A DNA stretch of 52,221 nt from a virus, in the IMG/VR virus record IMGVR_UViG_3300035698_011887, positions 1 to 52,221 of that record. One strand, given 5' to 3'. Shown in pieces: positions 10,921 to 31,609 of the stretch (within the stretch, counting starts at the first letter, position 1; each line of letters starts with the position of its first letter). The notes beneath the pieces were generated by a model. The model searched no databases and was not told where the DNA came from. It saw only the letters and a list, made by a program, of their open reading frames with translations. Made by a program: the position numbers and the translations under genes.

Positions 10921-12169
10921 TAGAGCATTCATAAGATTTAGAAACATAACTATATTGAACAGAGCAGAGGTATCCAATGTTTATGTTCGATTTACTGCCT
11001 ATAGTGATAGGTCTGATGTTCCTGTTAATTTGCGTTGTGCGTTTGTGGACGAAGATAATCCTGATGCCCCTGTTACCTTTTCCGAGTTGCAAAGCTATAA
11101 TTTAACTGACTGGGTTTCTTGGAATTTATTAAATAGTTGGACAGATGGAGATGTTTATGATACTCCTGATTTGACTGACACACTTCAAGGAATTATTGAA
11201 AGAGTTGGTTGGGAAAGCGGAAACTCTGTTATGTTAATAATAGAGGATGTCAGTTCAGTTGGTCAAAGAGGTTTTTCTTCTGTTCGTTTTTCTAATGGAG
11301 ATGAGAAAGCTCTTTTGTTTGTTACTTATTTAGCGAGAGAACCATCTATAATTGTTACTGGAAGAGGATATGTTTTTGGTGGAAATGATAATAGTGCTTT
11401 ACAAGACTGTGATGAATACACTCCTGATACTTGGGCAAATAAAACTGATTGTTTAGTAGAAATACTTAGAGCTTGTTCTTTTGCAATACAAGGAAAAGCT
11501 TATGTTTGTTATGAAGGAAGTGGCAATGCTGCTTTGTGTGATGAATATGTTCCCAATGTTTGGACAGTTAAAGCAAACCCACCAGTGCCTGGAAAAACCT
11601 TTGCAGCAGCTTTTACAGTAAATGATAAAGGGTATATTTGTTGTGGCAATGGATATGGAGAATCACAAGATTGTGACGAGTATGTTCCTGATACATGGGT
11701 GTCCAGAACGGACGCTCCATATCCACCTAGAATCCGTTTAGCTGGTTCCGAAATAAACAACAAAGGATATATTTATTGTGGTACGTATGGAATACTTTCT
11801 CTTGTGGATTGTGATGAATATGTTCCTGATACTTGGACAAACAAGACGGAATGTCCATTGCCCAAAAGAGGAAGTTTGGCAGCTTCTACAATAAACAATA
11901 AAGGATATATATATAGCGGCACTCATTTTACTTCTTATTTTAGGGATTGTGATGAATACACACCAGACACATGGACAAGCAAAACAGACAATCCTTTGCC
12001 AGCAAGAAAAGAATTAGCAGCTTCTACAATAAACAATAAAGGATATATATATTGTGGTGTGGCTGGTTCTTTTTATCAAGATTGTGATGAGTACACGCCA
12101 GATACATGGATAAGCAAAACAGATGTTCCTGCACCTGCAAGGAACGAAGTGGCAGCAACATCATTATAA
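10913..12169 (+). CDS. Second fibre protein: beta-sandwich N-terminus plus six kelch repeats
   Basis: The 418-residue protein begins at ATG 10913, overlapping the preceding stop, with AAAGGAG about 12 bases upstream. Residues 1 to about 140 look like a DNRLRE-type beta-sandwich (SNVYVRFTAYSDRSD; LTDTLQGIIERVGWESGNSV), a module common in secreted and phage fibre proteins. Residues of about 145-418 hold six kelch-like repeats of the same family as those ending the 5151-9860 protein. The first two repeats are the most divergent and the last four close to consensus. It lacks a Ser/Thr tract. It probably forms a six-bladed propeller for receptor binding; the shared repeats suggest exchange between the two genes. 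Confidence 0.72.
   Translation: MANRAFIRFRNITILNRAEVSNVYVRFTAYSDRSDVPVNLRCAFVDEDNPDAPVTFSELQSYNLTDWVSWNLLNSWTDGDVYDTPDLTDTLQGIIERVGWESGNSVMLIIEDVSSVGQRGFSSVRFSNGDEKALLFVTYLAREPSIIVTGRGYVFGGNDNSALQDCDEYTPDTWANKTDCLVEILRACSFAIQGKAYVCYEGSGNAALCDEYVPNVWTVKANPPVPGKTFAAAFTVNDKGYICCGNGYGESQDCDEYVPDTWVSRTDAPYPPRIRLAGSEINNKGYIYCGTYGILSLVDCDEYVPDTWTNKTECPLPKRGSLAASTINNKGYIYSGTHFTSYFRDCDEYTPDTWTSKTDNPLPARKELAASTINNKGYIYCGVAGSFYQDCDEYTPDTWISKTDVPAPARNEVAATSL
11350..12169 (+). repeat. Kelch repeat array 2 (six repeats)
   Basis: The repeats share long near-identical stretches with array 1 (TGTGATGAATACACTCCTGA occurs in both), while the codons between GYIYCG and DCDEY differ in every copy. Conserved flanks with variable centres are a good substrate for recombination between the arrays. 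Confidence 0.82.
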
Positions 12170-12216
12170 AATGCAACACAATCATTATTAACCCTAATGA
12201 AGAGAGGAGAATGAAA

Positions 12217-13473
12217 ATGAAAATCGCACTATTAACAAATTTTATGGAGTTTCAGCCAGGGTATTCCTTAACTGGAATTGTAAAAGACCAAGCAATCATG
12301 TTATCAAGGTTTGGTCACGATGTTCATCTTTTCGTAAACTCAGGATACAATGGGGAAGAGTTTGACGAATCAGTAACACTCCACAAGAGTATCCCTTTTG
12401 CCCATCTGATAGATTATACATCTGTCAATGACATCACACCGGAACACAAAGAGATTATCGAGCAATGTAGGAAGAATTTAGTTGAGGAGTTAGCAGATTT
12501 TGACTTCGCCTTCACGCATGATTTCGTGTTTACAGGATGGTTTATGATATATGGACAAGCATGTAGACAAGCTTCTCACAACCTTCCTAATTTACGCTGG
12601 CTGCATTGGATACATTCTGTTCCAAGTTCCATGTCAGATTGGTGGTTCATCAAACAGTATGGCGTCAATCACAAGCTTGTCTTCCCAAACAATACAGACA
12701 GAATCAGAGTTGCGGAACAGTATAGAGGGTTCGCTGATGACGTTAGGATTATCCCACACATAAAGGATATAAGGACGTTCTTTGATTTTCAAGAGGACAC
12801 TTGTAGATTCATTGATAAGTACCCTGCGATAATGCAAGCTGACGTTGTTCAAGTTCTTCCTGCTTCAGTTGATAGACTTTCTTCAAAGAGAGTTAAGGAA
12901 GTTATGACCATATTTGCTGAGATGAAAATGCAAGGAAAATCGGTATTTCTTGTTATTGCAAATCAATGGGCAACTGGAAAGCAACAGAAAGAAGATACCA
13001 ATATCTACAGACAACATGCAATGAAAAACGGACTGATTGACCAGAAGGAGTTTACTTTTACTTCTGATTTTGAATCACCGAAGTTTGACGTTGGCATTCC
13101 AAAAGAAATGCTGAGAGAACTATTTCAGTGTTCCAACCTATTTATTTTCCCAACAAGAGAAGAGAGTTTCGGCTTAGTTGTTCCTGAGGCTTCATTGGCA
13201 GGCGGAGTTTTTATGGTTCTTAATAAGTCATTGCAGATGCAAATCGAAATCAGTGGGGGACATGCAACATACTTTGAGTTTGGTTCTCACACGCAGACTT
13301 TCACTCCCGATGACCCCGCAAAGTATTATCATGACCTTGCTATAATTACTCTTGCAAGGATGAAAGATAATGAATCGGTAATGACCAAGACGTTTATGCG
13401 GCAACATTATAACATGGACTTTCTTTACAGAACATATTATGAACCAACAATGATGGAGCTAAAGGGAGTATAA
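12217..13473 (+). CDS. Glycosyltransferase, GT4-like (GT-B fold)
   Basis: First gene of the glycan island. The start is taken at ATG 12217, seven bases after GGAG (12206-12209), and not at the ATG six bases upstream, which abuts the ribosome site; the result is 418 residues. The N-terminus MKIALLTNF with a later GYSLTGIVKDQAIMLSRFGH fits the GT-B opening fold, and the C-terminal half has IFPTREESFGLVVPEASLAG, the E-x7-E region that binds the nucleotide sugar in GT4 enzymes. It likely transfers a hexose to a growing glycan in the cytoplasm. The acceptor is unknown; the context suggests the phage's own Ser/Thr-rich virion proteins. Confidence 0.82.
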   Translation: MKIALLTNFMEFQPGYSLTGIVKDQAIMLSRFGHDVHLFVNSGYNGEEFDESVTLHKSIPFAHLIDYTSVNDITPEHKEIIEQCRKNLVEELADFDFAFTHDFVFTGWFMIYGQACRQASHNLPNLRWLHWIHSVPSSMSDWWFIKQYGVNHKLVFPNNTDRIRVAEQYRGFADDVRIIPHIKDIRTFFDFQEDTCRFIDKYPAIMQADVVQVLPASVDRLSSKRVKEVMTIFAEMKMQGKSVFLVIANQWATGKQQKEDTNIYRQHAMKNGLIDQKEFTFTSDFESPKFDVGIPKEMLRELFQCSNLFIFPTREESFGLVVPEASLAGGVFMVLNKSLQMQIEISGGHATYFEFGSHTQTFTPDDPAKYYHDLAIITLARMKDNESVMTKTFMRQHYNMDFLYRTYYEPTMMELKGV

Positions 13474-13478
13474 TATAA

Positions 13479-14159
13479 ATGAGCCAATTTGAAGTGATAA
13501 TACCAGTTGTTAATCTTGACCTGTTGAGAAAGTTACTTCAGAGTATTTCTGAAAACACTTTGAAACCAAAGAGAGTGATTCTCATTGATAATACAAAGGA
13601 GAAGCCACATAAGATATTTGAACAGATTCCATTAATTAATGGATTCTTTACCAAAGTTTGTTATTCAGATACAAGACTTGTAAATGAGTCTTTGAACTTA
13701 GGAAGAGAATACATTTCAAAGAATTGTGATTTTGTTTCCTTTCTTAATGATGACATTGTTCTTTTGGACTGCTTCTTTCAAAGGAATTTAGAATTATTTG
13801 AAAAGTATGCGAATTGTGGCGTTGCTGTCCCTAGAACGGTTACTTCTATGGAAGAACTGAGGAAGGGAAAAGTTTTCCCTCAGTTAATAAACAAACGTGA
13901 AGGGTGGGCATTTACAATAAGAAAAAGACTGCTCGATGACATTCCTCCCATTCCTTGTGACAGAGTTGCTACTTTCCATGGTGACGATTGGATTTGGTAT
14001 CATACTGTGCCAAAAGAAAATTATTGGTATAAGGATGCAGGAAATGTAATCTTTCATCATGTGGGAACTTCTATTCTAAAGTTAGGATTTAGGGCGCACA
14101 AGAAATCTGAAAGAAATGAGTTTTGTAAAATAGCTCTTGAGAAAGGATGGTCTGAATGA
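13479..14159 (+). CDS. Glycosyltransferase, GT2-like (GT-A fold)
   Basis: The 226-residue protein has an N-terminal strand FEVIIPVVNLDLLRKLLQSI and a metal-binding acidic motif in VSFLNDDIVLLD at about residue 90, both typical of GT2 enzymes, and a later aromatic HGDDWIWYHT that would correspond to the acceptor-side acidic motif. It is short for the family and has no membrane segment, so it should act as a soluble enzyme. The stop overlaps the next start (ATGA), indicating coupled translation in the glycan island. Confidence 0.75.
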   Translation: MSQFEVIIPVVNLDLLRKLLQSISENTLKPKRVILIDNTKEKPHKIFEQIPLINGFFTKVCYSDTRLVNESLNLGREYISKNCDFVSFLNDDIVLLDCFFQRNLELFEKYANCGVAVPRTVTSMEELRKGKVFPQLINKREGWAFTIRKRLLDDIPPIPCDRVATFHGDDWIWYHTVPKENYWYKDAGNVIFHHVGTSILKLGFRAHKKSERNEFCKIALEKGWSE

Positions 14160-15277
14160 GATTGGTTTTTCTATATACGAGTGTTAGTCCTTGTCCTGTT
14201 GGTTCAAATCAACCTTGGAACTCAGACAAAGAAACACAAAACTTTTATGCTGTCAATGGAAATGGTTTGTTGTCTGAAGGCTATTTCCATATGATAAAGA
14301 AAATGAAAGAAGAGAAAATAGTTGATGACTTGATTATCTTTATCGAATCAGCGAAGACTCCCGGCAGTACTGTTTTAGATGGGATTCCAGTTTATGTTAC
14401 CCCTCAAATCGAATATGTTGAAAGCTTTTTGAAAGAGGATGATATCATATTTGCAAGAGGAGGTTTTCGCACATGGTTTCCTTTCCTTGAGAAAATGAAA
14501 GCACAGAAAAGATGGTTGCTTTTATATGCTGCTAATACTGGCAGACAGAGATGGAGATTTTGGGATGTTGTCTTTGATGACTTGAGTGGCAAACATTCTT
14601 GGGATGTGCATGGAAGATTCTTTTATGATTTTAAGAAACCAATACACCAAGATTGTTTTTTTCCGATGGACATAGAAAGAGAGTATGATATTTGTATTGG
14701 CGCCAGTCACATCCATGAAAAAAAGGGACAATGGAAAACGATTGAAGCCATAATCGAATACAAGAAATTATTTAATGTAAATTTAAAGTGTATCATGCCG
14801 GGAAGAGGGAACCGTGGGGTAAACACAAATAAAATAATACAAAAGGTGAGTGACCACCACTTGGATGTCTCTTTTCCCGGCATGGTCTCAAGAGAAGAAG
14901 TTTGTAAGATAATGAATCAGTCAAAGCTTTTTGTTTATCTTGGAGGTGGAGGTCAGAATGATAGAGGTCCCTTAGAAGCGTTGAGATGTGGAACTCCTAT
15001 TATTATTTCTAATCCCCCAAATCATTCCCACGTTGTTTATGACAACCCCCAAGTTTGTACTGTTGCTAAAGATAGTGATGATTTTAATTTGACTGCACAC
15101 GACATGTACAATACACTCAAAGCGACAAGCGAAGGGAAACGAAAGTACGTTGTAAGTTATTTTGAATCTACATGTGGGTTAAATGAAGTCATTATCCCAG
15201 ATATGCGGAAACTGTTTGGAATTATTAGGGACAATCCTGTGCCAAACACAGGTCCCTTAAAGGAGGCATACTTATGA
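14156..15277 (+). CDS. Glycosyltransferase, GT4-like
   Basis: The 373-residue protein has a Rossmann-like second half: YDICIGASHIHEKKGQW, then VSFPGMVSREEVCKIMNQS, LFVYLGGGGQNDRGPLEALR and CGTPIIISNPP, the donor-binding pattern of GT4 with Glu in the E-x7-E position. The N-terminal half is less conserved. Start and stop both overlap neighbours by ATGA. Donor and acceptor cannot be read from the sequence. Confidence 0.75.
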   Translation: MRLVFLYTSVSPCPVGSNQPWNSDKETQNFYAVNGNGLLSEGYFHMIKKMKEEKIVDDLIIFIESAKTPGSTVLDGIPVYVTPQIEYVESFLKEDDIIFARGGFRTWFPFLEKMKAQKRWLLLYAANTGRQRWRFWDVVFDDLSGKHSWDVHGRFFYDFKKPIHQDCFFPMDIEREYDICIGASHIHEKKGQWKTIEAIIEYKKLFNVNLKCIMPGRGNRGVNTNKIIQKVSDHHLDVSFPGMVSREEVCKIMNQSKLFVYLGGGGQNDRGPLEALRCGTPIIISNPPNHSHVVYDNPQVCTVAKDSDDFNLTAHDMYNTLKATSEGKRKYVVSYFESTCGLNEVIIPDMRKLFGIIRDNPVPNTGPLKEAYL

Positions 15278-17860: not shown

Positions 17861-18399
17861 ATAAATACATTTATATTCATATTCCGAGATGTGCCGGAAC
17901 TACTAATAGAGATGTTCTCAAGAATACTTTTGGAAGGGCAAGAGTGTACAGAGATTTGTCTTTTAAAAAAGAACCAAGATTATATAAAAATAAGAATGGT
18001 AAAGAACTTCTTGTTAATCGTTTTGAATTATGTGATAAAGCATATCAGAGTCGTTTTGGTTCTTTTGATTGGGAAAACTATGACGTTATATTTGGGCATT
18101 TTACAATTAGGAAATATATGTATATGGAGTGTCCTTTTATTACTTTTATACGGAATCCAATTGAAAGAATTATTTCTGAATATAGTGTTTTGAGAAGAGA
18201 GGATGAAAAATATAAAGATTTAAGTATGGTAGAATATTCATACTTAAATCAAAATTTAATAACATGGATGACTGGTGGAGATATTAGTAAATTTTTATTT
18301 ATTGGCATTGTTGAAAAATATGAGGAAAGAAAAGAAATTGAGTCGCACAATAAATTAGATATTGCTTTATACAATGAGGTTAAAGATGGTTTTTTATGA
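17842..18399 (+). CDS. Sulfotransferase, Sulfotransfer_2-like
   Basis: The start TTG 17842 lies 19 bases inside the end of the previous gene; no later start precedes the first motif. The 185-residue protein has a 5'-phosphosulfate loop, YIHIPRCAGTT (residues 11-21), close to the family HIPKTAGTS, and a 3'-phosphate site TFIRNPIERIISEY near residue 100, close to LRDPVERFLSEY. Both PAPS-binding elements are present. It is shorter than usual, so the C-terminal lobe may be reduced. Sulfation of phage-associated glycans is the simplest role. The stop overlaps the next ATG. Confidence 0.72.
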   Translation: MDTANINKYIYIHIPRCAGTTNRDVLKNTFGRARVYRDLSFKKEPRLYKNKNGKELLVNRFELCDKAYQSRFGSFDWENYDVIFGHFTIRKYMYMECPFITFIRNPIERIISEYSVLRREDEKYKDLSMVEYSYLNQNLITWMTGGDISKFLFIGIVEKYEERKEIESHNKLDIALYNEVKDGFL

Positions 18400-22381: not shown

Positions 22382-23308
22382 ATGCACAAATTATCAATCA
22401 TTTGCCCATTTGTAAATGAATTTCCCCAAATAATGTTTACTGCACAAGCAGTGGCACAATCACTTTTGGGGAGAGTCGAGTTTGAGTTTATGGCAATTAA
22501 CAACTATTGCGAAGAAGTTAAAGCACAAAGTAGAGAGCAGGACAAAGGTGGGGAGACAATGCAAGTTTGTCAGAAAGGAAATCCTTGGTTAAAGTATCTT
22601 GAATATACAGACAAGCTTTCTCATTGGCAGTCAAAGAATATGGGAGCCCAACATTCAACAGGAGATATTTTATGGTTCGTTGACGCCCACTGTGCTATAA
22701 CAAGAGATGGATTGTTTGATATGTTCAATTACTATGTTGAAAATCAAGAAAGACTGAACGGCACAATCCATCTTCCATTGACGTATAAAATACTTGAATG
22801 GCATAGACTCATTTACAAGCTGGCTGGAGAAATCGAGCAAGGAAATCTACATTACTCTTTTACTGGATACCGTGCAGCAGACGAGCCCTACGAAGTGCCT
22901 TGCATGTCAACGTGTGGAATGATGATGTCAAGAGAAATCTATGATAAATTAGGAGGCTGGCCTGTTGAACTTGGAATATATGGAGGTGGAGAGAACTTTA
23001 TCAACTACACTCTTGCTACTTTAGGAATGAAAAAATGGATAATGACAGGAGGTGGAACGCTGTTTCATCATGGAGAAAAGCGAGGCTACCACTGGAATGG
23101 TGACGATATGATAAGGAACCGTTTCATTGCTAATTATATGTTTGGTGGTGACAAGTGGTTGACATTGATGCGAGACAACAGAAAGGGGAAGAAAGAAGTA
23201 TTGACAAATATCTATAATGATGTTAAGGCGACCTGTAAAGGACATCGAGAATTAATTAAAAGACAACAGGTAATAAGTATTGAGGAATGGTTAACTAAGT
23301 GGAGGTAA
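22382..23308 (+). CDS. Glycosyltransferase, GT2 family
   Basis: The 308-residue protein begins HKLSIICPFVNEFPQIMFTA. DILWFVDAHCAITRDGL is the DxH-type metal motif of GT2/GT27 enzymes, and CGMMMSREIYDKLGGWP followed by YGGGENFINY matches the acceptor-side region of polypeptide GalNAc-transferase-like enzymes (GGWDEE..EGE..E). It could therefore be the enzyme that puts the first sugar on Ser/Thr, but this is inference. It is the last clear sugar gene of the island. Confidence 0.78.
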   Translation: MHKLSIICPFVNEFPQIMFTAQAVAQSLLGRVEFEFMAINNYCEEVKAQSREQDKGGETMQVCQKGNPWLKYLEYTDKLSHWQSKNMGAQHSTGDILWFVDAHCAITRDGLFDMFNYYVENQERLNGTIHLPLTYKILEWHRLIYKLAGEIEQGNLHYSFTGYRAADEPYEVPCMSTCGMMMSREIYDKLGGWPVELGIYGGGENFINYTLATLGMKKWIMTGGGTLFHHGEKRGYHWNGDDMIRNRFIANYMFGGDKWLTLMRDNRKGKKEVLTNIYNDVKATCKGHRELIKRQQVISIEEWLTKWR

Positions 23309-23312
23309 AAGC

Positions 23313-23783
23313 ATGGCCCAAGCACTAAAAATCAAAACAGCAAATACACCCTTAAAAATAGTCGGTGACATCATTGGTATTTTTAATGATGCTCATAGGT
23401 TTTCAGAGTATGAATTGTTAGCTTTCGATGTATCTAAAATTGAAGGCGAAAGAGAAGAGGTTGTCGCTAAACTCAATGCAATTCAAATACCATTTTCAAC
23501 AGCCTACAAAACAGAAACAACCAGATGGTCACAGACAAGGCCCGTATCAAAGACTGTTTGGCGGGATACTGACGATAAGTGGTACTTTCTTGAAGCTCTA
23601 CCCAAGCATCAATGGTCAATGGCTTTGCTTAAGGAATCAGAGAAAACCACTTTAGAAACAGCCACAACAGGTCTTGCCAGGGATGCAGTTTATAAGAAGA
23701 TGGTTGTTAACCCCGGCACTTGGGATGAAAAGAACAAGACTGAGGCAACAGATTTAAACCCTATGGCTTTAGCGGAGAAATAA
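23313..23783 (+). CDS. Hypothetical protein
   Basis: The 156-residue protein has GGAGG about nine bases upstream of ATG 23313. No signal peptide or membrane segment. The sequence is mixed alpha/beta and has several Trp residues (RWSQTRPVSKTVWRD, KWYFLEALPKHQW). I do not recognise a family. Location after the glycan island and before adhesin-related genes gives no firm hint. Confidence 0.6.
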   Translation: MAQALKIKTANTPLKIVGDIIGIFNDAHRFSEYELLAFDVSKIEGEREEVVAKLNAIQIPFSTAYKTETTRWSQTRPVSKTVWRDTDDKWYFLEALPKHQWSMALLKESEKTTLETATTGLARDAVYKKMVVNPGTWDEKNKTEATDLNPMALAEK

Positions 23784-23793
23784 GGAGGTAATT

Positions 23794-24102
23794 GTGGAAA
23801 ACTGTGTACAATGTAACAATAAACTAGGGGAAGTTTTTATCAGAAATAATGCCGATGGCATTTGTAGTCTACGGTGTTGGGAAAATTATCTGAAAGAAAA
23901 CAGAGAGGATGAAGAAGTTTTAAGGGCTGAGTATGAGATGGCTTATTCAGAGCCACGTGAGATATTGGGTAGAGAAAATATGCCAACTATCGGAGCTTGG
24001 GAATATGAACCCCCTAAAGTAGAGGTATATAATTGTGTAATGTATAATTGCACAGGGCCAGAAGTAGAAAAAGGAGAAGGGGAAAATGGCAGAAATATAT
24101 AG
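23794..24102 (+). CDS. Small zinc-ribbon-like protein
   Basis: GTG 23794 follows AAGGAGGTAATT, so the GTG start is well supported. The 102-residue protein has an N-terminal four-cysteine arrangement (CVQCNNKLG, then GICSLRCWENYL), a probable treble-clef or ribbon zinc site, followed by an acidic stretch and YNCVMYNCTG. The last 17 bases overlap the next small gene. Function unknown. Confidence 0.6.
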   Translation: MENCVQCNNKLGEVFIRNNADGICSLRCWENYLKENREDEEVLRAEYEMAYSEPREILGRENMPTIGAWEYEPPKVEVYNCVMYNCTGPEVEKGEGENGRNI

Positions 24103-24253
24103 CATAATATTGGAAGATTGGGATTATTGGGATGGGACTAAGTCTTGGGGTGGCGAAGGTTCAAAAGCTGCGAGAGATAAGAGGTATAGCATTCGAAGAT
24201 TTTGGGATGTTCGGCAAATTTTACTAAAAAGAAAGCCAAAAATTAATAATTAA
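24086..24253 (+). CDS. Truncated duplicate of the adhesin N-terminus (55 aa)
   Basis: ATG 24086 is preceded by GGAGAAGGGG. The product matches the start of the adhesin at 24356: both begin MA(E/D)VYS-like, then share YWDGT(K/I)SWGGE, a basic stretch ending (R/T)(R/K)YS, and (I/T)RRF. Similarity ends near residue 40, after which a short basic tail runs to TAA. It looks like a partial tandem copy that lost its remainder, though the frame and ribosome site are intact and a short protein could still be made. Confidence 0.6.
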   Translation: MAEIYSIILEDWDYWDGTKSWGGEGSKAARDKRYSIRRFWDVRQILLKRKPKINN

Positions 24254-24261
24254 TAATTAAC

Positions 24262-24338
24262 CCCGGATGCCTTTTGCAAGAGGTTAAGGATGACGGCCTG
24301 TGTTCGTTCATCCAATCCGGGAACCTACACAGGAGGTG
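24262..24338 (+). ncRNA. Candidate structured leader RNA with pseudoknot overlapping the ribosome site
   Basis: Outer stem CCCGGAT (24262-24268) pairs with ATCCGGG (24315-24321). Inside are a small hairpin (24270-24283, CCTTT/AGAGG with one G-T pair, loop TGCA) and a hairpin GGATGA (24288-24293)/TCATCC (24308-24313). The loop of the latter has CCTGTGT (24297-24303), which is complementary over 7 bp to ACACAGG (24327-24333), and those last bases are part of the ribosome site AGGAGGTG (24331-24338). The pairs fit together as one pseudoknotted fold. It could regulate translation of the adhesin. No known riboswitch or ribozyme class was recognised. Confidence 0.55.
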
Positions 24339-24343
24339 ATTTT

Positions 24344-24355
24344 ATGGAAAAATAA
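24344..24355 (+). CDS. Three-codon leader minigene (MEK)
   Basis: ATG GAA AAA TAA stands four bases after the full ribosome site AGGAGGTGA (24331-24339); its stop is followed at once by the adhesin ATG at 24356. The adhesin start is 16 bases from the site, too far for direct initiation, so translation by termination-reinitiation through this minigene is likely. Confidence 0.45.
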   Translation: MEK

Positions 24356-27130
24356 ATGGCAGACGTATATTCAGCAATAATACTTGACGATGACTACTGG
24401 GATGGGACTATATCCTGGGGCGGTGAGACTACTGAAGCCAACCGGGACACTAAGTATTCCACTCGTAGATTTACGTCTGTTGCTGCCTGGGAGGCTGATA
24501 GAGGAACAAATAGCCAAGCTGGTGATAATGAATATGGGATTATCAGTGGCGCTTGGGCGAGCGCAGATGCAGCAGCGGTGCATATATCAGGTTTTAGTTC
24601 TGATGCCGAAATACTACAATGTCCTTTAACATTACCCGATGGTACAAATCCAGCAAGGCATAATGGTATCCTTGATGGTGTAGCTAATTCTCATAAACTT
24701 GAATTAGATGCTGATGGTCAAATATTAAGTGCCAACCAAAGCAATGTAACAATAGACGGATTACAATTACATAATACCAGGACGGGTGATGTTTCAGCAG
24801 CGTGTGTTTTGTTCAATCAAGCAAACACGGGGATGGTTCTTAAAAATCTTGTGTGCAGCGGGGCTGAAGACGGAAATGGAATACAGATTTCCAATGCTGC
24901 TATTACTGTTACAATCCACAATTGTGTTGTTTATAACCCTCATGCTCAACATGCAGCATCAGAGGGGATATATCTTAATATCTGTTCCACAGCGCTTGTT
25001 TATAATTGTGTAGTTTATAATTATAATGATGGCATTGAAGTTGATAACGGAACAGTAACAGTCAAAAATACTGCCGTTTTTAATAATGGTGATGACTTTG
25101 ATGGCACATTCACTCTTGACTATAACGCCTCAGACGATGGTGACGGTACAAACGCTGTTGATTGGACAGCAGAGGCAACAGACTGGGCAGCTAATTTCAC
25201 AGCTTATACTACTGGAAATTTTACACCGCTAAATGTTGATTTGCCGGGTGCGGGAGTTGGCCCAGATACAGACGCTAACGTTCTCACAACTGATATAATC
25301 GGCAACGCAAGAAGCGGTGGCACCTGTACGATAGGAGCGTTTGAGTATCAGGGTGGGGCAACCACCACCACCACTACCACTACGACTTCAAGTACCATTT
25401 CTACTACTTCAAGCACTGCTTCAACAGCTTCAACTACCTCGTCTACGGAAAGTACCACATCTTCAAGTACCACCAGTTCATCAACAACCACATCCTCAAG
25501 TACCAGTTCTACAGCAAGTACTACCAGCTCAACACATTCAACAACCAGCTCTTCAACTACAAGTTCAACTGCTTCTACAACCAGTACTACACACAGTACC
25601 ACCACTAGTTCCTCAACAACAGCGTCTAGTTCAAGCACTACTTCATCTACAGCTTCTACTACTAGTACCACATCTTCAACACACAGTACCACCAGTTCCA
25701 CACACACCACCACAAGTTCGACTTACAGTACTACCTCCTCTACAGCATCGACACTGAGTACCACATCCAGTACGTACTCATCTACCTCAAGCACAGCGAG
25801 TACCACTTCGTCTACATATTCGACTGTTAGTACAACTACCAGTTCATTTAGTACAACGTCTTCTACTGCGTCTACTGTCAGTACCACTTCGTCTACATAT
25901 TCAACTACATCTTCTACCGCTTCGACACTGAGTACCACATCCAGTACAGCAAGTACCACGAGTTCTACATATTCAACTGTCAGTACCACAAGTAGCACAT
26001 ATAGCACAACATCAAGTACATACAGTACCACAAGTACAACAGCTTCTACATTGAGTACCACTTCAAGCTCAAGTTCTACAGAGTCCACAACGTCAACATA
26101 TAGTACCACAAGTTCAACTGCTCCCGGAGCAACAACACATTCAACAACCACAAGCAGTTCGTCTACCAGTTCAACTTATTCAACCACAAGTACCACGAGT
26201 TCAACGTATAGCACTACCAGTTCTACACTGTCTACCACAAGCAGTTCTATGAGTACCACTTCAAGCACTGCTTCAACTATCAGTACCACATCTTCAACAC
26301 ACTCGACTACCTCATCTACAGCATCTACCACGAGTAGTTCATATTCGACTACATCCAGTACAGCGAGTACTACGAGTTCAACACACAGTACCACATCCAG
26401 TACCCATACTACTACCAGTTCGACTGCGAGTACCACCAGTTCCACATCTAGTACGATATCTACCACAAGCACGACTGCTCCCGGAGTGACAACACACAGC
26501 ACAACTACCAGTAGCTCAAGTTCCAGTTCAACGGCTTCGACTACATCGAGTACTCAATCTACCATCAGTACAACTTCAAGTACAACATCTTCAACAGCCA
26601 GTACCACGAGTAGTACTGCAAGTACGACTTCGAGTACTTATTCTACCATCAGTACAACGTCTTCAACATATAGTACCACCAGTTCGACACATAGTACGAT
26701 ATCTACCACATCCAGTACCCATACTTCTACCAGTTCGACTTTAAGCACGACCTCAAGCTCAATGAGTACAACGAGCAGTACAGCTTCAACTACCAGCAGT
26801 ACAGCATCAACTGGCAGCACAACATCGAGCTTTTCAACTACATCCAGTACTCAATCTACGACCAGTTCGAGCAGTTCAAGCTCAACCTATACAACTACCA
26901 GCAGTACGTCAAGTTCGTCAAGCAGTACCATGACAACTCAGACAGGAGCAACAGGAACTACCACAACAAGCTCTTCGAGTTCGAGTTCAACGACAAGCAG
27001 TACATATATACCAACAGATGCTATTTACAATTTTAAACATGCGGCAATTAAAACCAATTTTAAGCACAAAAACACACAAGTTAATTTTAAGCACAAAAAC
27101 ACACAAGTTAATTTTAAGGAGGTGGTTTAA
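24356..27130 (+). CDS. Large adhesin: parallel beta-helix head with mucin-like Ser/Thr stalk
   Basis: The 924-residue protein has residues 1 to about 335 in the form of a right-handed parallel beta-helix (NVTIDGLQLHNTRTGD, GMVLKNLVCSG, ALVYNCVVYNYNDGIEV, TVTVKNTAVFNNGDD are successive turns; ending ARSGGTCTIGAFEYQG). Residues of about 338-885 are almost only Ser and Thr with regular Ala, Tyr, His, Val or Met and two short APG(A/V)TTHSTT breaks. The C-terminus has four NFK turns, two of them an exact NFKHKNTQV repeat. No signal peptide, so it is probably a virion protein. The stalk is the type of sequence that becomes densely O-glycosylated, and the sugar-enzyme island lies just upstream. Confidence 0.75.
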   Translation: MADVYSAIILDDDYWDGTISWGGETTEANRDTKYSTRRFTSVAAWEADRGTNSQAGDNEYGIISGAWASADAAAVHISGFSSDAEILQCPLTLPDGTNPARHNGILDGVANSHKLELDADGQILSANQSNVTIDGLQLHNTRTGDVSAACVLFNQANTGMVLKNLVCSGAEDGNGIQISNAAITVTIHNCVVYNPHAQHAASEGIYLNICSTALVYNCVVYNYNDGIEVDNGTVTVKNTAVFNNGDDFDGTFTLDYNASDDGDGTNAVDWTAEATDWAANFTAYTTGNFTPLNVDLPGAGVGPDTDANVLTTDIIGNARSGGTCTIGAFEYQGGATTTTTTTTTSSTISTTSSTASTASTTSSTESTTSSSTTSSSTTTSSSTSSTASTTSSTHSTTSSSTTSSTASTTSTTHSTTTSSSTTASSSSTTSSTASTTSTTSSTHSTTSSTHTTTSSTYSTTSSTASTLSTTSSTYSSTSSTASTTSSTYSTVSTTTSSFSTTSSTASTVSTTSSTYSTTSSTASTLSTTSSTASTTSSTYSTVSTTSSTYSTTSSTYSTTSTTASTLSTTSSSSSTESTTSTYSTTSSTAPGATTHSTTTSSSSTSSTYSTTSTTSSTYSTTSSTLSTTSSSMSTTSSTASTISTTSSTHSTTSSTASTTSSSYSTTSSTASTTSSTHSTTSSTHTTTSSTASTTSSTSSTISTTSTTAPGVTTHSTTTSSSSSSSTASTTSSTQSTISTTSSTTSSTASTTSSTASTTSSTYSTISTTSSTYSTTSSTHSTISTTSSTHTSTSSTLSTTSSSMSTTSSTASTTSSTASTGSTTSSFSTTSSTQSTTSSSSSSSTYTTTSSTSSSSSSTMTTQTGATGTTTTSSSSSSSTTSSTYIPTDAIYNFKHAAIKTNFKHKNTQVNFKHKNTQVNFKEVV
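25369..27010 (+). repeat. Ser/Thr-coding tract 4 (about 547 codons)
   Basis: The longest of four such tracts in the window. Units of about 11-12 codons (such as STTSSTASTVST) recur with changing codons. Two APG(A/V)TTHSTT islands at about 26121 and 26479 divide it into three blocks, suggesting duplication of a block of about 350 bases. The antisense strand is open and gives Val/Leu/Glu-rich shadow frames. Confidence 0.88.
27056..27115 (+). repeat. 27-bp perfect direct repeat at the adhesin 3' end
   Basis: The unit AATTTTAAGCACAAAAACAC plus seven more bases occurs at 27056-27082 and 27083-27109, and a third partial copy follows. It encodes NFKHKNTQV. No spacers, so not a CRISPR array; it is a coding tandem duplication. 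Confidence 0.85.
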
Positions 27131-27469
27131 ATGGCTTCAGTAGAATCCTTTACAAAACAAAACTATGAGCAGTTCTTCATTGCCGTCGATTTAGTAGACG
27201 TATTGGAGTCTGGGGAAAGCATAGATTTAGCTTCAACAACCATCACAGCATTAAAAGTGGATGGGACAACGGCAGCAACAGCTATTATATTGCAACCGCT
27301 AACAAAAGCATTAGATGATTCCCCTGATGGTGGAACTGACAACAGAGTTAAACTTCGAGTTCAAGCTGGTGTGGAGGCAGATTCTCCATACAAAATAACA
27401 TTTAAAATTCCTACAGATTTGAATAATCAATGGGAAGTAGATGTTAAAATGAAAATAAAGGAGTTGTAA
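27131..27469 (+). CDS. Hypothetical phage structural-type protein
   Basis: The 112-residue protein starts at ATG 27131, directly after the adhesin stop and behind AAGGAGGTGG. It has a beta-rich pattern (ESIDLASTTITALKVDG; SPYKITFKIPTDLNNQWEVDVKMKI) that resembles small beta-sandwich proteins encoded beside fibres. It could be a fibre accessory or tip protein. The family is not recognised. Confidence 0.6.
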   Translation: MASVESFTKQNYEQFFIAVDLVDVLESGESIDLASTTITALKVDGTTAATAIILQPLTKALDDSPDGGTDNRVKLRVQAGVEADSPYKITFKIPTDLNNQWEVDVKMKIKEL

Positions 27470-27470
27470 A

Positions 27471-27893
27471 ATGACTGAGTTCACCGACAAAGATAGAATA
27501 TTGCTTACACGACACGATGTAAAACTTGGTAGGGTATGCTCGGATATGAAGGAACTAAAAAAAGAGTTAAAAGAAGGCTTCAAGACAATATTTGAAAAAT
27601 TGGATGCAAATATTGTAAATTGCTCGGTGAATAGAACTGAGTGTCAAAGGGAATTTGATGGAAAGATAAAAGATATTGATGAAAAGACAGGGAAGTTTTT
27701 TACTAGGACAGTTTTAATGTGGATTCTTGGTATTCTTATCTTTGGTGTAATTAGTATTGGTTCATTTACGGGAGCAGTAGCAATTATGTCAAATGTAAAC
27801 AAACAAAGAATATTAGACTTTCACAAAGGGGAGACTATTAGAAATGATTTGGGAACCAGTAATAAAACTACTTCGAGTAGAAGAGAATTTTGA
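27471..27893 (+). CDS. Membrane-anchored coiled-coil protein, possible holin-type
   Basis: The 140-residue protein has an N-terminal charged coiled coil (CSDMKELKKELKEGFKTIFE), one strong membrane segment at about residues 82-105 (MWILGILIFGVISIGSFTGA) and a short tail. This resembles XhlA/hemolysin-type proteins that go with phage holins. The next gene, a putative lysis protein, begins 50 bases before its stop. Lysis role is inferred from position and topology. Confidence 0.55.
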   Translation: MTEFTDKDRILLTRHDVKLGRVCSDMKELKKELKEGFKTIFEKLDANIVNCSVNRTECQREFDGKIKDIDEKTGKFFTRTVLMWILGILIFGVISIGSFTGAVAIMSNVNKQRILDFHKGETIRNDLGTSNKTTSSRREF

Positions 27894-28272
27894 CTTCGGC
27901 ACGTTTGGGGTTTGGCTTATAAGCACCCGAGCTTTTTGTGTTTGTCTTGAGCCACCTGATATAGAGAACTCAAGAAACATTTCCAGTATACCTGCACAGC
28001 AGTATGAATGTGAGAGATACTCTTCAGATAAGTACCCAGATACATTTCAGGTTATGAATGTTCCCAATAGAGACAAGGTACTTATCCATGCAGGCAATCT
28101 AAAGAAGCACACAGAGGGTTGTATAATGCTTGCTCAACACTTTGGAAAACTGGAAGTAGCAACTCAGGAAGAGAGAGCGGTACTTAATTCTGGTAATACT
28201 TTTAAGTCCTTTATGAATTTAATGGAAGGCGTTAAGAAATTTAACTTGACAATCGTTGAACACTATGGTTAA
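27844..28272 (+). CDS. DUF5675-like protein, putative lysis-associated enzyme
   Basis: The 142-residue protein has FGTFGVWLISTRAFCVCLEP, ISSIPAQQYECER and VPNRDKVLIHAGNLKKHTEG followed by CIMLAQH, matching the DUF5675 pattern (TLG.L, IPaG.Y, R..IliHxGN, GCI). The family is common next to phage holins and has a fold reminiscent of L,D-transpeptidase-type enzymes, with conserved His and Cys. ATG 27844 is inside the previous gene, but the family match begins near this start. It is a candidate cell-wall enzyme. Confidence 0.65.
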   Translation: MIWEPVIKLLRVEENFDFGTFGVWLISTRAFCVCLEPPDIENSRNISSIPAQQYECERYSSDKYPDTFQVMNVPNRDKVLIHAGNLKKHTEGCIMLAQHFGKLEVATQEERAVLNSGNTFKSFMNLMEGVKKFNLTIVEHYG

Positions 28273-28294
28273 CGAAAACTAAGGAGGTAGACAG

Positions 28295-29227
28295 ATGAAA
28301 ACTTTAATGTACATGTTTTTGGTTTTAGTTTTATTAATTGCTTCTGTTTGTTCCGCAGCAAACATTACTTTAAGATGGGATGCTAATACGGAAACAGATT
28401 TGGCTGGTTATGAATTGCATTATAAGATGGATACACCGGGAGAGCCTTACGATGGAACTGGTGCCACTGAAGGAAACTCACCAGTAGATATACCATTGAG
28501 TATTTTAGTTGATGTGAACAACCCTGAGTTTACAATAACTAATTTAGATGCTGGACATATATATTTTCTTGCATTGAAAGCATATGACACAACAGCTAAT
28601 TATAGTGGTCTTTCCAATGAGGTTACTTCTTTTTATATATCATCGCCAATGAATGGCTTCCTTATTAACTCAACTAACTATACTGCATTTAATGTACATG
28701 GCAGAGCAGCGGCCTTTATTGATGTAGATATTTATTCCAATAATGTATTAATTGGAACAACAACACCAGATACAAATGGGGCTTGGTCAATAGATATTGA
28801 TTTTAGTGGTGTGAGTCAAGGGATAATTAATATTCATGCTGAAACAAATGCAAGCCCGTTACCCACGGGCAGTGTGGTTGGAACATTAGATTATACAGCC
28901 CCGCTACCACCCACAATAACACAATCATTAGTGGTTACTTCTGTAACTCAAACAGAGGTAGGTCTTTCGTGGGATGACGTTCCAGATACCACAGGATATG
29001 TTGTGTATAGAAATGGTGCAAATATTAGTCAGACACCCAACAATCAGTATACTGATGTGGGATTGACACCAGCAACAACCTATGAATATGAAGTATCAAC
29101 AGTAGATAATCTTAGCATCAAATCGAATTTGGAAAGCGCTACGACCTTACCAGATAGTAGTCCACCACCTAGTGGAGGTAGAGGTGGAGGTAGTAGCAGT
29201 GGTTGCTTTATTAACTCAATCAAATAA
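28295..29227 (+). CDS. Exported fibronectin type III protein with truncated GCFIATA-like end
   Basis: The 310-residue protein follows AAGGAGGT. It has a Sec signal peptide (residues 1-21, hydrophobic, cleavage after CSA), a first fibronectin type III domain (ITLRWDANTETDLAGYELHY, IYFLALKAYDTTANYSGLSN), an Ig-like middle (SPMNGFLINSTNYTAFNVHG) and a second fibronectin domain (VGLSWDDVPDTTGYVVYRNG). The end is Pro/Gly/Ser-rich and stops at GCFINSIK, which recalls the host motif GCFIATAAYG that precedes membrane anchors, here cut short. Probably a host-derived surface or superinfection protein. Confidence 0.65.
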   Translation: MKTLMYMFLVLVLLIASVCSAANITLRWDANTETDLAGYELHYKMDTPGEPYDGTGATEGNSPVDIPLSILVDVNNPEFTITNLDAGHIYFLALKAYDTTANYSGLSNEVTSFYISSPMNGFLINSTNYTAFNVHGRAAAFIDVDIYSNNVLIGTTTPDTNGAWSIDIDFSGVSQGIINIHAETNASPLPTGSVVGTLDYTAPLPPTITQSLVVTSVTQTEVGLSWDDVPDTTGYVVYRNGANISQTPNNQYTDVGLTPATTYEYEVSTVDNLSIKSNLESATTLPDSSPPPSGGRGGGSSSGCFINSIK

Positions 29228-29243
29228 ATTAAGGAGGTAAATT

Positions 29244-29711
29244 ATGTTATCTTGGTTTGGAAAAGTATTTGGCACAGGAAAAGCATTGGAACAAGGATTA
29301 GGTACTATTGATAAGGTAGCTGATGGAGCAGTCAAAGGACTTGATGCCTTGTTTTTTACACCAGAAGAGAAATCAAATCAGTCTGTGAGGATTCTCGGAA
29401 TGAATATGGCAATGGTAAAAGCTTTGCAGGATGAGTTTGCCCCAAGAGCAATCACACGCAGAGTACTTGCAATTATTATTGTAGGCAGTACTTTTATTCA
29501 TTTCAATATTGCTGTGTTTATGGGAATCATGGCTAATTTGAATCCGAAAATTATTATGGTTGATGGAAAAGAAGTTAATGCTTGGACAGGTGCTTTGAAT
29601 TTTACAGCGACAATACTTGCCCAAGAGATTAAGATTGCTATGATTGTGGTATTCTTCTACTTTGGATACTATGGTGTCAAAGCAATAATGAGAGAAAAGA
29701 ATGGCAATTAA
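29244..29711 (+). CDS. Holin-like membrane protein
   Basis: The 155-residue protein follows AAGGAGGTAAAT. The N-terminal half is amphipathic (GLGTIDKVADGAVKGLDALF, then FFTPEEKS), followed by two membrane segments at about 72-97 and 118-145, the layout of the holin_3TM group. Its place among the lysis cassette genes at the end of the + arm supports holin function. A second membrane protein follows. Confidence 0.62.
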   Translation: MLSWFGKVFGTGKALEQGLGTIDKVADGAVKGLDALFFTPEEKSNQSVRILGMNMAMVKALQDEFAPRAITRRVLAIIIVGSTFIHFNIAVFMGIMANLNPKIIMVDGKEVNAWTGALNFTATILAQEIKIAMIVVFFYFGYYGVKAIMREKNGN

Positions 29712-29731
29712 CCATTAACAAGGAGGTAGAA

Positions 29732-29899
29732 ATGGAATTTTTGTGGCTAGTAGGCGGAGTTTTGGTTGGTGGGGTTGTAATGTTTTTTGTGGCTCGGAAC
29801 AACCAGAAGAAGTTTAATGAAGCACTGAACATTGACCCTAAGATGAAAGCAAAAGAAGTTCTTGCTGAGTTAAAGCGCCGTCTTGCAAGTAAGATATAA
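29732..29899 (+). CDS. Small single-span membrane protein
   Basis: ATG 29732 stands after AAGGAGGT. The 55-residue product has an N-terminal membrane segment (WLVGGVLVGGVVMFFVARN) and a Lys/Glu-rich cytoplasmic or periplasmic tail (KAKEVLAELKRRLASKI). It could be an antiholin or an i-spanin-like protein. It is the last gene of the + arm and is followed by the convergent hairpin. Confidence 0.6.
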   Translation: MEFLWLVGGVLVGGVVMFFVARNNQKKFNEALNIDPKMKAKEVLAELKRRLASKI

Positions 29900-29907
29900 T
29901 TGATTGG

Positions 29908-29934
29908 GCTCCCCTCTATTCTTTAGGGGGGAGC
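29908..29934. terminator. Bidirectional hairpin between convergent arms
   Basis: GCTCCCC (29908-29914) pairs with GGGGAGC (29928-29934) over 7 GC-rich bp with a 13-base loop. It lies between the last + gene (stop 29899) and the end of the - arm, overlapping the 3' end of the - gene at 29916. No long T run follows on either side, so termination may be weak or factor-assisted. Confidence 0.6.
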
Positions 29935-30158
29935 TTAAATATTTCGTCCCACTCTTCAAACAGTCTTCTCAATGCTCTTCTTTTTGTGCTTCTAATTATA
30001 GATAGATAATCCATATCGGTTCGTTTTAATTTTAGTGCATGTAACTTCTGTGCAATAGCTTCAGTACTCTTTCCAACGTATTTACCTATCTCATGGTTAG
30101 TCATTGAATTATAATTATCAAGCAAGTAATCTAATTGCCACTCTACCCATTCTGCCAT
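29916..30158 (-). CDS. Myb/SANT-like helix-turn-helix small protein
   Basis: The 80-residue protein has WVEWQLDYLLDNYNSMTNHE, then IGKYVGKSTEAIAQKLHALKLKR, which fits the SANT/Myb-like three-helix pattern of phage and bacterial DNA-binding proteins (W..EE..L..N...., LA..LGRS..AV..K...L). Start and previous stop overlap (TAATG). Last gene of the - arm. Probably a small DNA-binding protein. Confidence 0.6.
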   Translation of the reverse strand: MAEWVEWQLDYLLDNYNSMTNHEIGKYVGKSTEAIAQKLHALKLKRTDMDYLSIIRSTKRRALRRLFEEWDEIFKLPPKE

Positions 30159-30376
30159 TATTCTTCTTCCAGCAGTTTTTGTTTTAGATACATAACAAGG
30201 TCTAATGCCTCCTGATATGCATCCATCAATGAGTTCCTACCATTATTTGTTTGCAAAGGAGTTCCATATCGGATAGTTCCAATCTCTTCTCTCTTTTGCA
30301 AATCAATTATCACTTGCGGTAGAACATTCTGTGTTCCTTTCTTTGGTTCTGGTTCTCTGATATGTGCTTTTGACAT
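30158..30376 (-). CDS. MazG-like small protein
   Basis: The 72-residue protein with VLPQVIIDLQKREEIGTIRY, then GTPLQTNNGRNSLMDAYQEA and LDLVMYL, resembles a small all-alpha NTP pyrophosphohydrolase-like family seen in phages and actinobacteria. The acidic helix (DAYQEALDL) is compatible with metal binding, but the full EExxE/ExxD set is not evident. TAATG overlaps on both sides place it in the recombination operon. It might sanitise nucleotide pools. Confidence 0.5.
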   Translation of the reverse strand: MSKAHIREPEPKKGTQNVLPQVIIDLQKREEIGTIRYGTPLQTNNGRNSLMDAYQEALDLVMYLKQKLLEEE

Positions 30377-31011
30377 TATACTTCCTTTGGAATTAGATTT
30401 ACTTTTGCAAATTCTCCATGATATTTTAAGGCTGCCTCGTTATAGGCTCTTGCTGCGTCTTTTTTTGTTTCATACATGCCAAGATGTTTTTTATGGTAAT
30501 TAACTGTTATATATGCTTGCCATTTTTTTGCTCCCTTGTCTCTCCACACTCCCTTATAGCCAGATTTATTTTTGCTGTTTACTTTTCTATTCCTACTATT
30601 TTGTTTATTGGTACACACCCTTAGTTTTTCCTTTCGATTATCTAATGTATTGTGGTTTCTATGGTCTATTTGAACATCTCTACTTGGTGTTATTCCCAAT
30701 ACAATGTGCTGCAACCCCACTTTTTTTCTGCCCATGTCTGCATTCACTCTCCCTTGGTGTAAACGCCATTTATATTTTTTAACCTTGTCAACATCTTCGG
30801 CATCAATAAGTGTCCTTGCTACCTCTTCTGACCTTACATTATATAAAACAATTTCTGCAATATCTCCATTGATAATTATTTTATTGGGGTCACTGGTTGT
30901 TCTTTTCTTTATTTTTCCATATCGGGATACCTGCATATAGTGTTTACCACAATATCCTTTTGCATCGTGTATAGAAGAACAGCCAATTACCTTACATATT
31001 CTCTTTGACAC
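30376..31011 (-). CDS. HNH endonuclease with AP2 domain (homing type)
   Basis: The start is GTG 31011, seven bases after GGAGGT; an ATG at 31026 overlaps that site. The 211-residue protein has an N-terminal Cys motif (CKVIGCSSIHDAKGYCGKHY), an HNH_3 core (LQHIVLG, VQIDHRNHNTLDNRKEKLRV) and a C-terminal AP2-like DNA-binding domain (SGYKGVWRDKGAKKWQAYIT, then LGMYETKKDAARAYNEAALK). Such free-standing endonucleases spread by homing. It sits directly after the C-terminal piece of the split SbcC, the second HNH gene of this cluster. Confidence 0.85.
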   Translation of the reverse strand: MSKRICKVIGCSSIHDAKGYCGKHYMQVSRYGKIKKRTTSDPNKIIINGDIAEIVLYNVRSEEVARTLIDAEDVDKVKKYKWRLHQGRVNADMGRKKVGLQHIVLGITPSRDVQIDHRNHNTLDNRKEKLRVCTNKQNSRNRKVNSKNKSGYKGVWRDKGAKKWQAYITVNYHKKHLGMYETKKDAARAYNEAALKYHGEFAKVNLIPKEV

Positions 31012-31609
31012 TGCTGATACCTCCATTTTTAGTTACGGTGAATGTCTTGTCTGCCGAAATATTTATTTCTGTTTGGTGTGACACTATTATTATTTGTAGT
31101 CCCAGCTTTGTGGATAACATTTTGAGCATGTCACTTGCCTTTTCATGCAAATCTCTGGACAAGTTTCTTAGAGGTTCATCTAATACTATGGTACTTCGAT
31201 TCTTTTTCAAAGACCAAAATGATATTCTTAAAGCTAAAGATGCAACATCTACGGGACCAAATCCCGACCCTTCTAATGGATGATACTCATTCCCATGTTC
31301 CTCAAACAACAAGTCGCATTCTGTCTTGTTTCTTCGTGTTACAAATCTGACTACAAACTCTATCTCTTCATCAAATACCGAGCGTATAGCAGTCGTGACA
31401 AGCTTAGAAATATGATATTCAAGATTGCTCTGCGTTATCTGTGCTACTTCTTGGAAGATTATACGAGCCTTCTCTGCGTGTGCTGCTCTGTCCTTATGGA
31501 AGATATAGCTCTCTTCCAAACTTTCAACCTGCTCTTCCAGTAATGTCTTTCTTGCTTTGGCATTTTGGAAGTGTTCTTTTATGGATTCAAATTCTTCTAG
31601 GTTTACCAT
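30992..31609 (-). CDS. sbcC: SbcC/Rad50-like ATPase, C-terminal piece
   Basis: The 205-residue protein has a short coiled coil, then the ABC signature region LEGSGFGPVDVASLALRISF and a Walker B with catalytic Glu, STIVLDEPLRNLS, and a D-loop/H-loop region LQIIIVSHQTEI. It has no Walker A, so it cannot act alone. With the pieces at 31603-31842 and 33626-34708 it makes a complete SbcC/gp46-type ATPase, which with SbcD processes DNA ends for recombination. It overlaps the preceding small gene by seven bases. Confidence 0.85.
   Translation of the reverse strand: MVNLEEFESIKEHFQNAKARKTLLEEQVESLEESYIFHKDRAAHAEKARIIFQEVAQITQSNLEYHISKLVTTAIRSVFDEEIEFVVRFVTRRNKTECDLLFEEHGNEYHPLEGSGFGPVDVASLALRISFWSLKKNRSTIVLDEPLRNLSRDLHEKASDMLKMLSTKLGLQIIIVSHQTEINISADKTFTVTKNGGISSVKENM

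Follow-up and report, generated by a model that had tools for sequence, protein, structure and literature searches.

Organization of the adhesin locus

The window analyzed here is the whole of IMG/VR record IMGVR_UViG_3300035698_011887, which derives from an uncultivated virus and comprises 52,221 bases (positions 1 to 52,221). A late structural operon of about 30 genes on its + strand contains a leader, which is located between a 55-codon ORF (24086-24253, +) and the gene encoding a 924-residue adhesin-like protein (24356-27130, +). The gap that holds the leader measures 102 nt, whereas all other gaps in the operon are 23 nt or shorter or are overlaps. The core of the leader has a GC content of 55%, and its edges are AT-rich. 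Neither a promoter nor an intrinsic terminator was found on the + strand at the leader site, and the lack of a promoter-like site near the leader is consistent with an intercistronic element. Inspection by eye for an integron-type attC site gave no matching core sites, and this candidate was rejected.

The product of the downstream gene was assigned as an adhesin or tail-fiber-like protein from its translation and a match to Pfam PF13229. Its N-terminal part is a right-handed β-helix, which is followed by a very long, low-complexity, Ser/Thr-rich stalk (TTSSTASTTSST..., 25350-27000) that also occurs in the otherwise different fiber gene of a close relative. This stalk may be glycosylated; several glycosyltransferase-like genes are present in the same operon (12106-15277 and 22382-23308). 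The 55-codon ORF directly upstream of the leader encodes a truncated paralogue of the adhesin N terminus (52% identity in the alignment), which duplicates the first ~40 residues of the adhesin (MAEIYSIILEDWDYWDGTKSWGGE...), then diverges and stops. Its first 41 residues are 56% identical to the adhesin of a relative. This ORF may be what is left of an earlier adhesin, or an N-terminal domain that exists on its own.

A strong ribosome-binding site serves a three-codon minigene

Within the leader, the Shine-Dalgarno (SD) sequence AGGAGGTGAT (24331-24340, +) is a 10-nt match to the 3′ end of 16S rRNA. Its duplex with the anti-SD has an energy of -16.6 kcal/mol, the strongest among 31 starts tested, narrowly ahead of the gene at 27131, directly after the adhesin (-16.5 kcal/mol). 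The spacing of 7 nt between AGGAGG and the next ATG fits a start at 24344 and not that of the adhesin, whose own ATG at 24356 has an SD energy of only -3.3 kcal/mol. The start at 24344 opens a three-codon minigene, ATG GAA AAA TAA (24344-24355, +), which is in frame with the adhesin ATG and abuts it. The preliminary description of this DNA had assigned the site to a minigene whose stop adjoins the adhesin start, and both the sequence and the SD energies bear this out. The locus shares with minigene-controlled leaders a very short ORF that has its own SD and lies close enough to the main start for re-initiation. A further, alternative upstream ORF of 21 codons (MTACVRSSNPGTYTGGDFMEK, 24290-24355, +), overlooked in the preliminary description, ends at the stop codon of the minigene and has an SD-like GAGGT (24280-24284) five nt 5′ of its ATG at 24290.

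Predicted fold of the leader

The leader can form three stems and a pseudoknot. Stem P1 pairs CCCGGAU (24262-24268, +) with AUCCGGG (24315-24321, +) through 7 bp, all Watson-Crick. It adjoins, with no spacer, the P2 hairpin GCCUUU-UGCA-AGAGGU (24269-24284, +; strands 24269-24274 and 24279-24284), which is followed by UAA and then by the 9-bp P3 hairpin (24288-24313, +), in which 24288-24296 pairs with about 24304-24313. The loop of P3 (L3, 24297-24303, +) is CCUGUGU, and its entire length is complementary to ACACAGG (24327-24333, +), whose last three bases are also the first three of the SD. This pseudoknot helix (PK) again comprises 7 bp, all Watson-Crick, and P1, P2, P3, and PK are mutually compatible in one fold. 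The three compatible stems and the 7-bp pairing between loop and ribosome site that had been described at first are thus all present.

With P3 (9 bp) beside P1 (7 bp), the linker at 24322-24326 (5 nt) would place L3 next to the tail, and from these lengths the modeled knot appears sterically reasonable; pairing of all 7 nt of L3 probably requires the top of P3 to open. We infer that the leader RNA may fold in this way in the cell. Of the 10 nt of SD match, the pseudoknot takes up only three, at the 5′ end; the leftover AGGUGAU still binds the anti-SD at -8.3 kcal/mol, so any masking of the SD would be partial or steric, by bulk. The earlier proposal that the fold covers part of the SD is therefore upheld as to the overlap and weakened as to its extent.

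The pseudoknotted fold is predicted to be rarer than chance

The site had been picked in the preliminary description before testing, and shuffled controls had been suggested there as a check of the fold. The nested stems alone are ordinary, with z-scores of -0.96 for 24250-24360 (111 nt) and -1.9 for the 75-nt core at 24262-24336. The pseudoknot was then scored as a loop-to-outside helix by its stacking energy plus a penalty of 7 kcal/mol, which is a heuristic model. With this term added, the z-score of the 75-nt core fell to between -3.8 and -4.0, and shuffled sequences folded as well in 0 of 150 and 2 of 1200 cases; the latter count was still 2 of 1200 when AGGAGG was held fixed in the shuffling. 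For the core with its flanks, the z-score was about -3, and 1 of 150 shuffles was as good. With the nested fold taken as given, shuffled tails or random loops produce a 7-bp L3-tail pairing that is wholly Watson-Crick at a frequency of about 0.1%; the figure is about 2.3% if G-U pairs are allowed.

None of 4172 75-nt windows elsewhere in the genome, on both strands, reached the energy of the core (-31.6 kcal/mol), the next best pseudoknotted window being 8.5 kcal/mol weaker (-23.1 kcal/mol). In two related virus records, 3 of 11,068 windows reached the core energy, all with nested-only folds, and the best pseudoknotted window there had -26.5 kcal/mol. Further, this and related phages (385 kb) contain 668 SD-like sites, and of the pseudoknots touching an SD at these sites, that of the leader was by far the most stable. 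Within the folding model used, these results support a pseudoknotted fold against the SD that is rarer than chance.

Searches for homologues of the leader and for known RNA classes

When the window was searched with the Rfam 15 covariance models at the gathering score, no match was obtained, and at permissive E-values only chance-level matches appeared, the best being TeloSII_ncR30 (E 3.2, other strand) and flavi_FSE (E 8.1), both far under the cut-offs. The glnA and Downstream-peptide models gave no match at E up to 10, the Rfam xrRNA (exoribonuclease-resistant RNA) families gave no sequence match, and the glutamine riboswitch core GGAAGUA, which is conserved in the crystallized RNAs, is absent from 24262-24343. 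This agrees with the initial impression of an unrecognized class of RNA.

A covariance search for homologues with compensatory changes had also been suggested, and our searches of phages, plasmids, IMG/VR, and GTDB returned none. BLASTN with the leader in phages and plasmids yielded nothing beyond chance matches of 18-44 nt. Pattern searches of IMG/VR for P3, PK, and SD together and for P1, tail, and SD were empty, as was the leader pattern search of GTDB genomes; a pattern of PK and SD gave four matches in IMG/VR, which had unrelated folds. A covariance model built from the single sequence and run over the window, L002-L006, and twelve virus records recovered only the leader itself; a match at 18356 (E 0.028) was without P1 and was taken as chance.

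The adhesin gene and the leader lie in an apparently exchanged region

The only relative of the adhesin that we found is that of IMGVR_UViG_3300017613_002273 (L002; 46% identity), and none was found in named phages or in GTDB genomes. In L002, the adhesin ATG overlaps the end of the upstream gene and is served by a plain GAGGAG site, with neither leader nor minigene. Stop-codon readthrough or hopping was considered unneeded in our virus, the adhesin N terminus being complete from the ATG at 24356 and matching the L002 start. A close relative of the phage as a whole is IMGVR_UViG_3300033153_006334 (G003), in which the DNA polymerase is 86% identical and most genes are syntenic. At the adhesin locus, G003 has different tail-tip genes and no leader or minigene; its fiber gene, preceded by a 13-nt gap, has only a C-terminal piece in common with the adhesin. 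When 22382-27130 was compared with 25091-30472 of G003 (L036/L031), the flanks were 82-89% identical at the protein level, and the cassette between them was unrelated except for that C-terminal piece. From these alignments, the adhesin N-terminal module and its leader seem to have been swapped in as a cassette; the truncated paralogue just upstream is further evidence of recombination at the locus.

In the sequences compared, neither related lineage conserves the leader. Homologous leaders that lacked the pairings had been named at the outset as evidence against the fold, and this objection holds in part: what we found were homologous loci without the whole element, and no leaders with broken pairings were seen. 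Absence from the relatives' loci indicates that the element is not conserved and does not show that it is non-functional.

Elsewhere in the record, a homing-type HNH endonuclease with an AP2 domain is encoded at 30376-31026 (-) and had no tblastn match in G003. A 14-nt exact match, TATGGAAAAATAAA, occurs both at the minigene (24343-24356) and within this HNH gene (30908-30921, -), probably by chance. A GC-rich hairpin (GGGCTCCCCTCT/AGGGGGGAGC, 29901-29935) at the junction of two convergent operons is likely a terminator.

Discussion

We tentatively favor, at a little under even confidence, the view that the leader throttles translation of the adhesin in cis, is specific to this lineage, belongs to no known family, and would work as known SD-masking pseudoknots and minigene leaders do. 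Folding of the three-way junction would carry L3 to the tail just beyond P1, where it would pair with the 5′ portion of the SD, and the pseudoknot would then compete with loading of the 30S subunit. A ribosome that did load would start the minigene, terminate at its TAA directly before the adhesin ATG, and then be recaptured by the SD or re-initiate at the adhesin. Overall, the adhesin would be made slowly compared with the products of the neighboring genes in the operon, at a rate set by the structure. The analysis shows the pairings and their improbability, the SD strengths, the gap, and the minigene layout, whereas repression by the leader and recapture of ribosomes by the minigene are what we infer. 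For a throttle speak the rarity of the fold, the 102-nt gap in an otherwise tightly packed operon, the contrast between the SDs of minigene and adhesin, and the lack of a nearby promoter-like site. A throttle is also favored because, in E. coli constructs, an SD-less ORF was not translated when it abutted an SD-bearing upstream ORF of 3-5 codons, the ribosome being recaptured by the SD, whereas upstream ORFs of more than six codons permitted downstream translation (PMC9955659). Leader minigenes act in cis to modulate the gene that follows them, and other such leaders raise expression, through coupling or mRNA protection (PMC8708949). Because published minigene leaders can raise or lower expression, the direction of the effect in the host is a guess. 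Against a throttle stand the lack of a leader homologue in our searches, the absence of leader and minigene from both the nearest adhesin relative and the close syntenic phage, the small share of the SD that PK covers, and the probable need to open the top of P3 for full pairing of L3.

The main rival explanation, which we regard as somewhat unlikely, is that the leader is a relic of module exchange: the leader, SD, and ATG-GAA-AAA would have come with or before another gene and then been joined to the adhesin N-terminal module, and the fold, whether real or accidental, would have no present role except to supply the SD. The swapped cassette between its closely similar flanks, the truncated N-terminal paralogue just upstream, and the relatives without leader and minigene all fit this explanation. 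However, the operon tolerates almost no spare sequence elsewhere, and a 7-bp all-Watson-Crick pseudoknot next to a perfect SD would hardly be expected to stay intact in debris that is decaying.

By analogy with known RNAs, the compact knot, a ribosome parked at the strong SD and minigene, or both might instead shield the downstream late mRNA from RNases, which we consider quite unlikely. The predicted topology is that of flaviviral xrRNA, with a three-way junction and L3 paired with sequence 3′ of P1 (PMC5760640), and espADB mRNA is reportedly stabilized by a ribosome bound at a strong SD that precedes a mini-ORF of six codons (PMC8708949). The likeness to flaviviral xrRNA is one of predicted topology; the leader has no sequence match to any xrRNA family in Rfam and lies in another context. 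In the glutamine-I riboswitch (glnA RNA), too, a three-way junction is combined with pairing of L3 to the 3′ tail, and the leader is again alike in topology but lacks both the Rfam match and the conserved core. Its sequence matches neither kind, and we file the leader under neither the xrRNAs nor the glutamine-I riboswitch.

An improbable reading is a leader of a new kind, in which the pseudoknot would choose between two ribosome entries, with the strong SD leading into the three-codon trap and the weak one into the 21-codon ORF, which shares its stop codon with the minigene and would hand ribosomes on to the adhesin; if so, the RNA would set adhesin dosage without any ligand.

In the leader of T4 gene 32, likewise a structured phage mRNA leader tied to translation control, a simple pseudoknot far upstream nucleates binding of gp32. 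A switch of a new class that senses a ligand or a protein, as a riboswitch or as an operator for a phage protein of the T4 gene 32 kind, had been suggested for the present leader and is in our estimation very improbable. A compact pseudoknot against an SD is the typical architecture of such elements, and T4 gp32 is reported to be an autogenous repressor of translation that recognizes its own mRNA (PMC535899). In the leader described here, it is a three-way junction that would pair straight into the SD, with no known binding protein; the suggestion of sensing gained no support, as no homologue was found that could show conserved loop nucleotides, the adhesin is not a metabolic gene, and the phage proteins searched included no candidate regulator. 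Least probable of all, the 21-codon ORF would be the real unit, its weak-SD ribosomes melting the fold, stopping at the TAA, and handing over to the adhesin, with the strong SD futile. This frame is open from its ATG through the minigene, it follows GAGGT at five nt, and re-initiation occurs after ORFs longer than six codons but not after those of 3-5 codons (PMC9955659); however, chance would give an open frame this long in about one case in three, its ATG lies inside P3, and no homologue was found with which its coding could be compared.

Translational control by leader pseudoknots and by minigenes is already known. The throttle that we favor would resemble the minigene leaders of EHEC LEE1/ler, the LEE4 mini-ORF, and axe-txe mg2 in having a very short SD-driven ORF before the main gene, with an effect in cis on translation or mRNA stability (PMC8708949). 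It differs in that the gene encodes a phage adhesin whose start follows the minigene stop directly, the minigene SD lies partly within the predicted pseudoknot, and the function is a proposed one. Coat-lysis coupling in the RNA phage GA and its derivatives with short upstream ORFs likewise have a stop that adjoins the next start and a downstream gene without a useful SD (PMC9955659), but in GA the overlapping UAAUG follows a full-length coat gene, whereas here UAA|AUG follows three codons and a strong SD. In a narrow search of the literature, we found no phage adhesin gene whose leader joins a pseudoknot with a minigene that adjoins the start.

As a single sequence without relatives, the leader constitutes for now a well-defined hypothesis. 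If it is correct, the phage would set the copy number of a receptor-binding protein within a long polycistronic message through an SD-masking knot and a decoy minigene, and the leader would be a small natural system in which to examine whether very short ORFs trap ribosomes or pass them on. Further, dosage control and the receptor-binding module would move together, since the leader would be carried along with an adhesin module that can be swapped.
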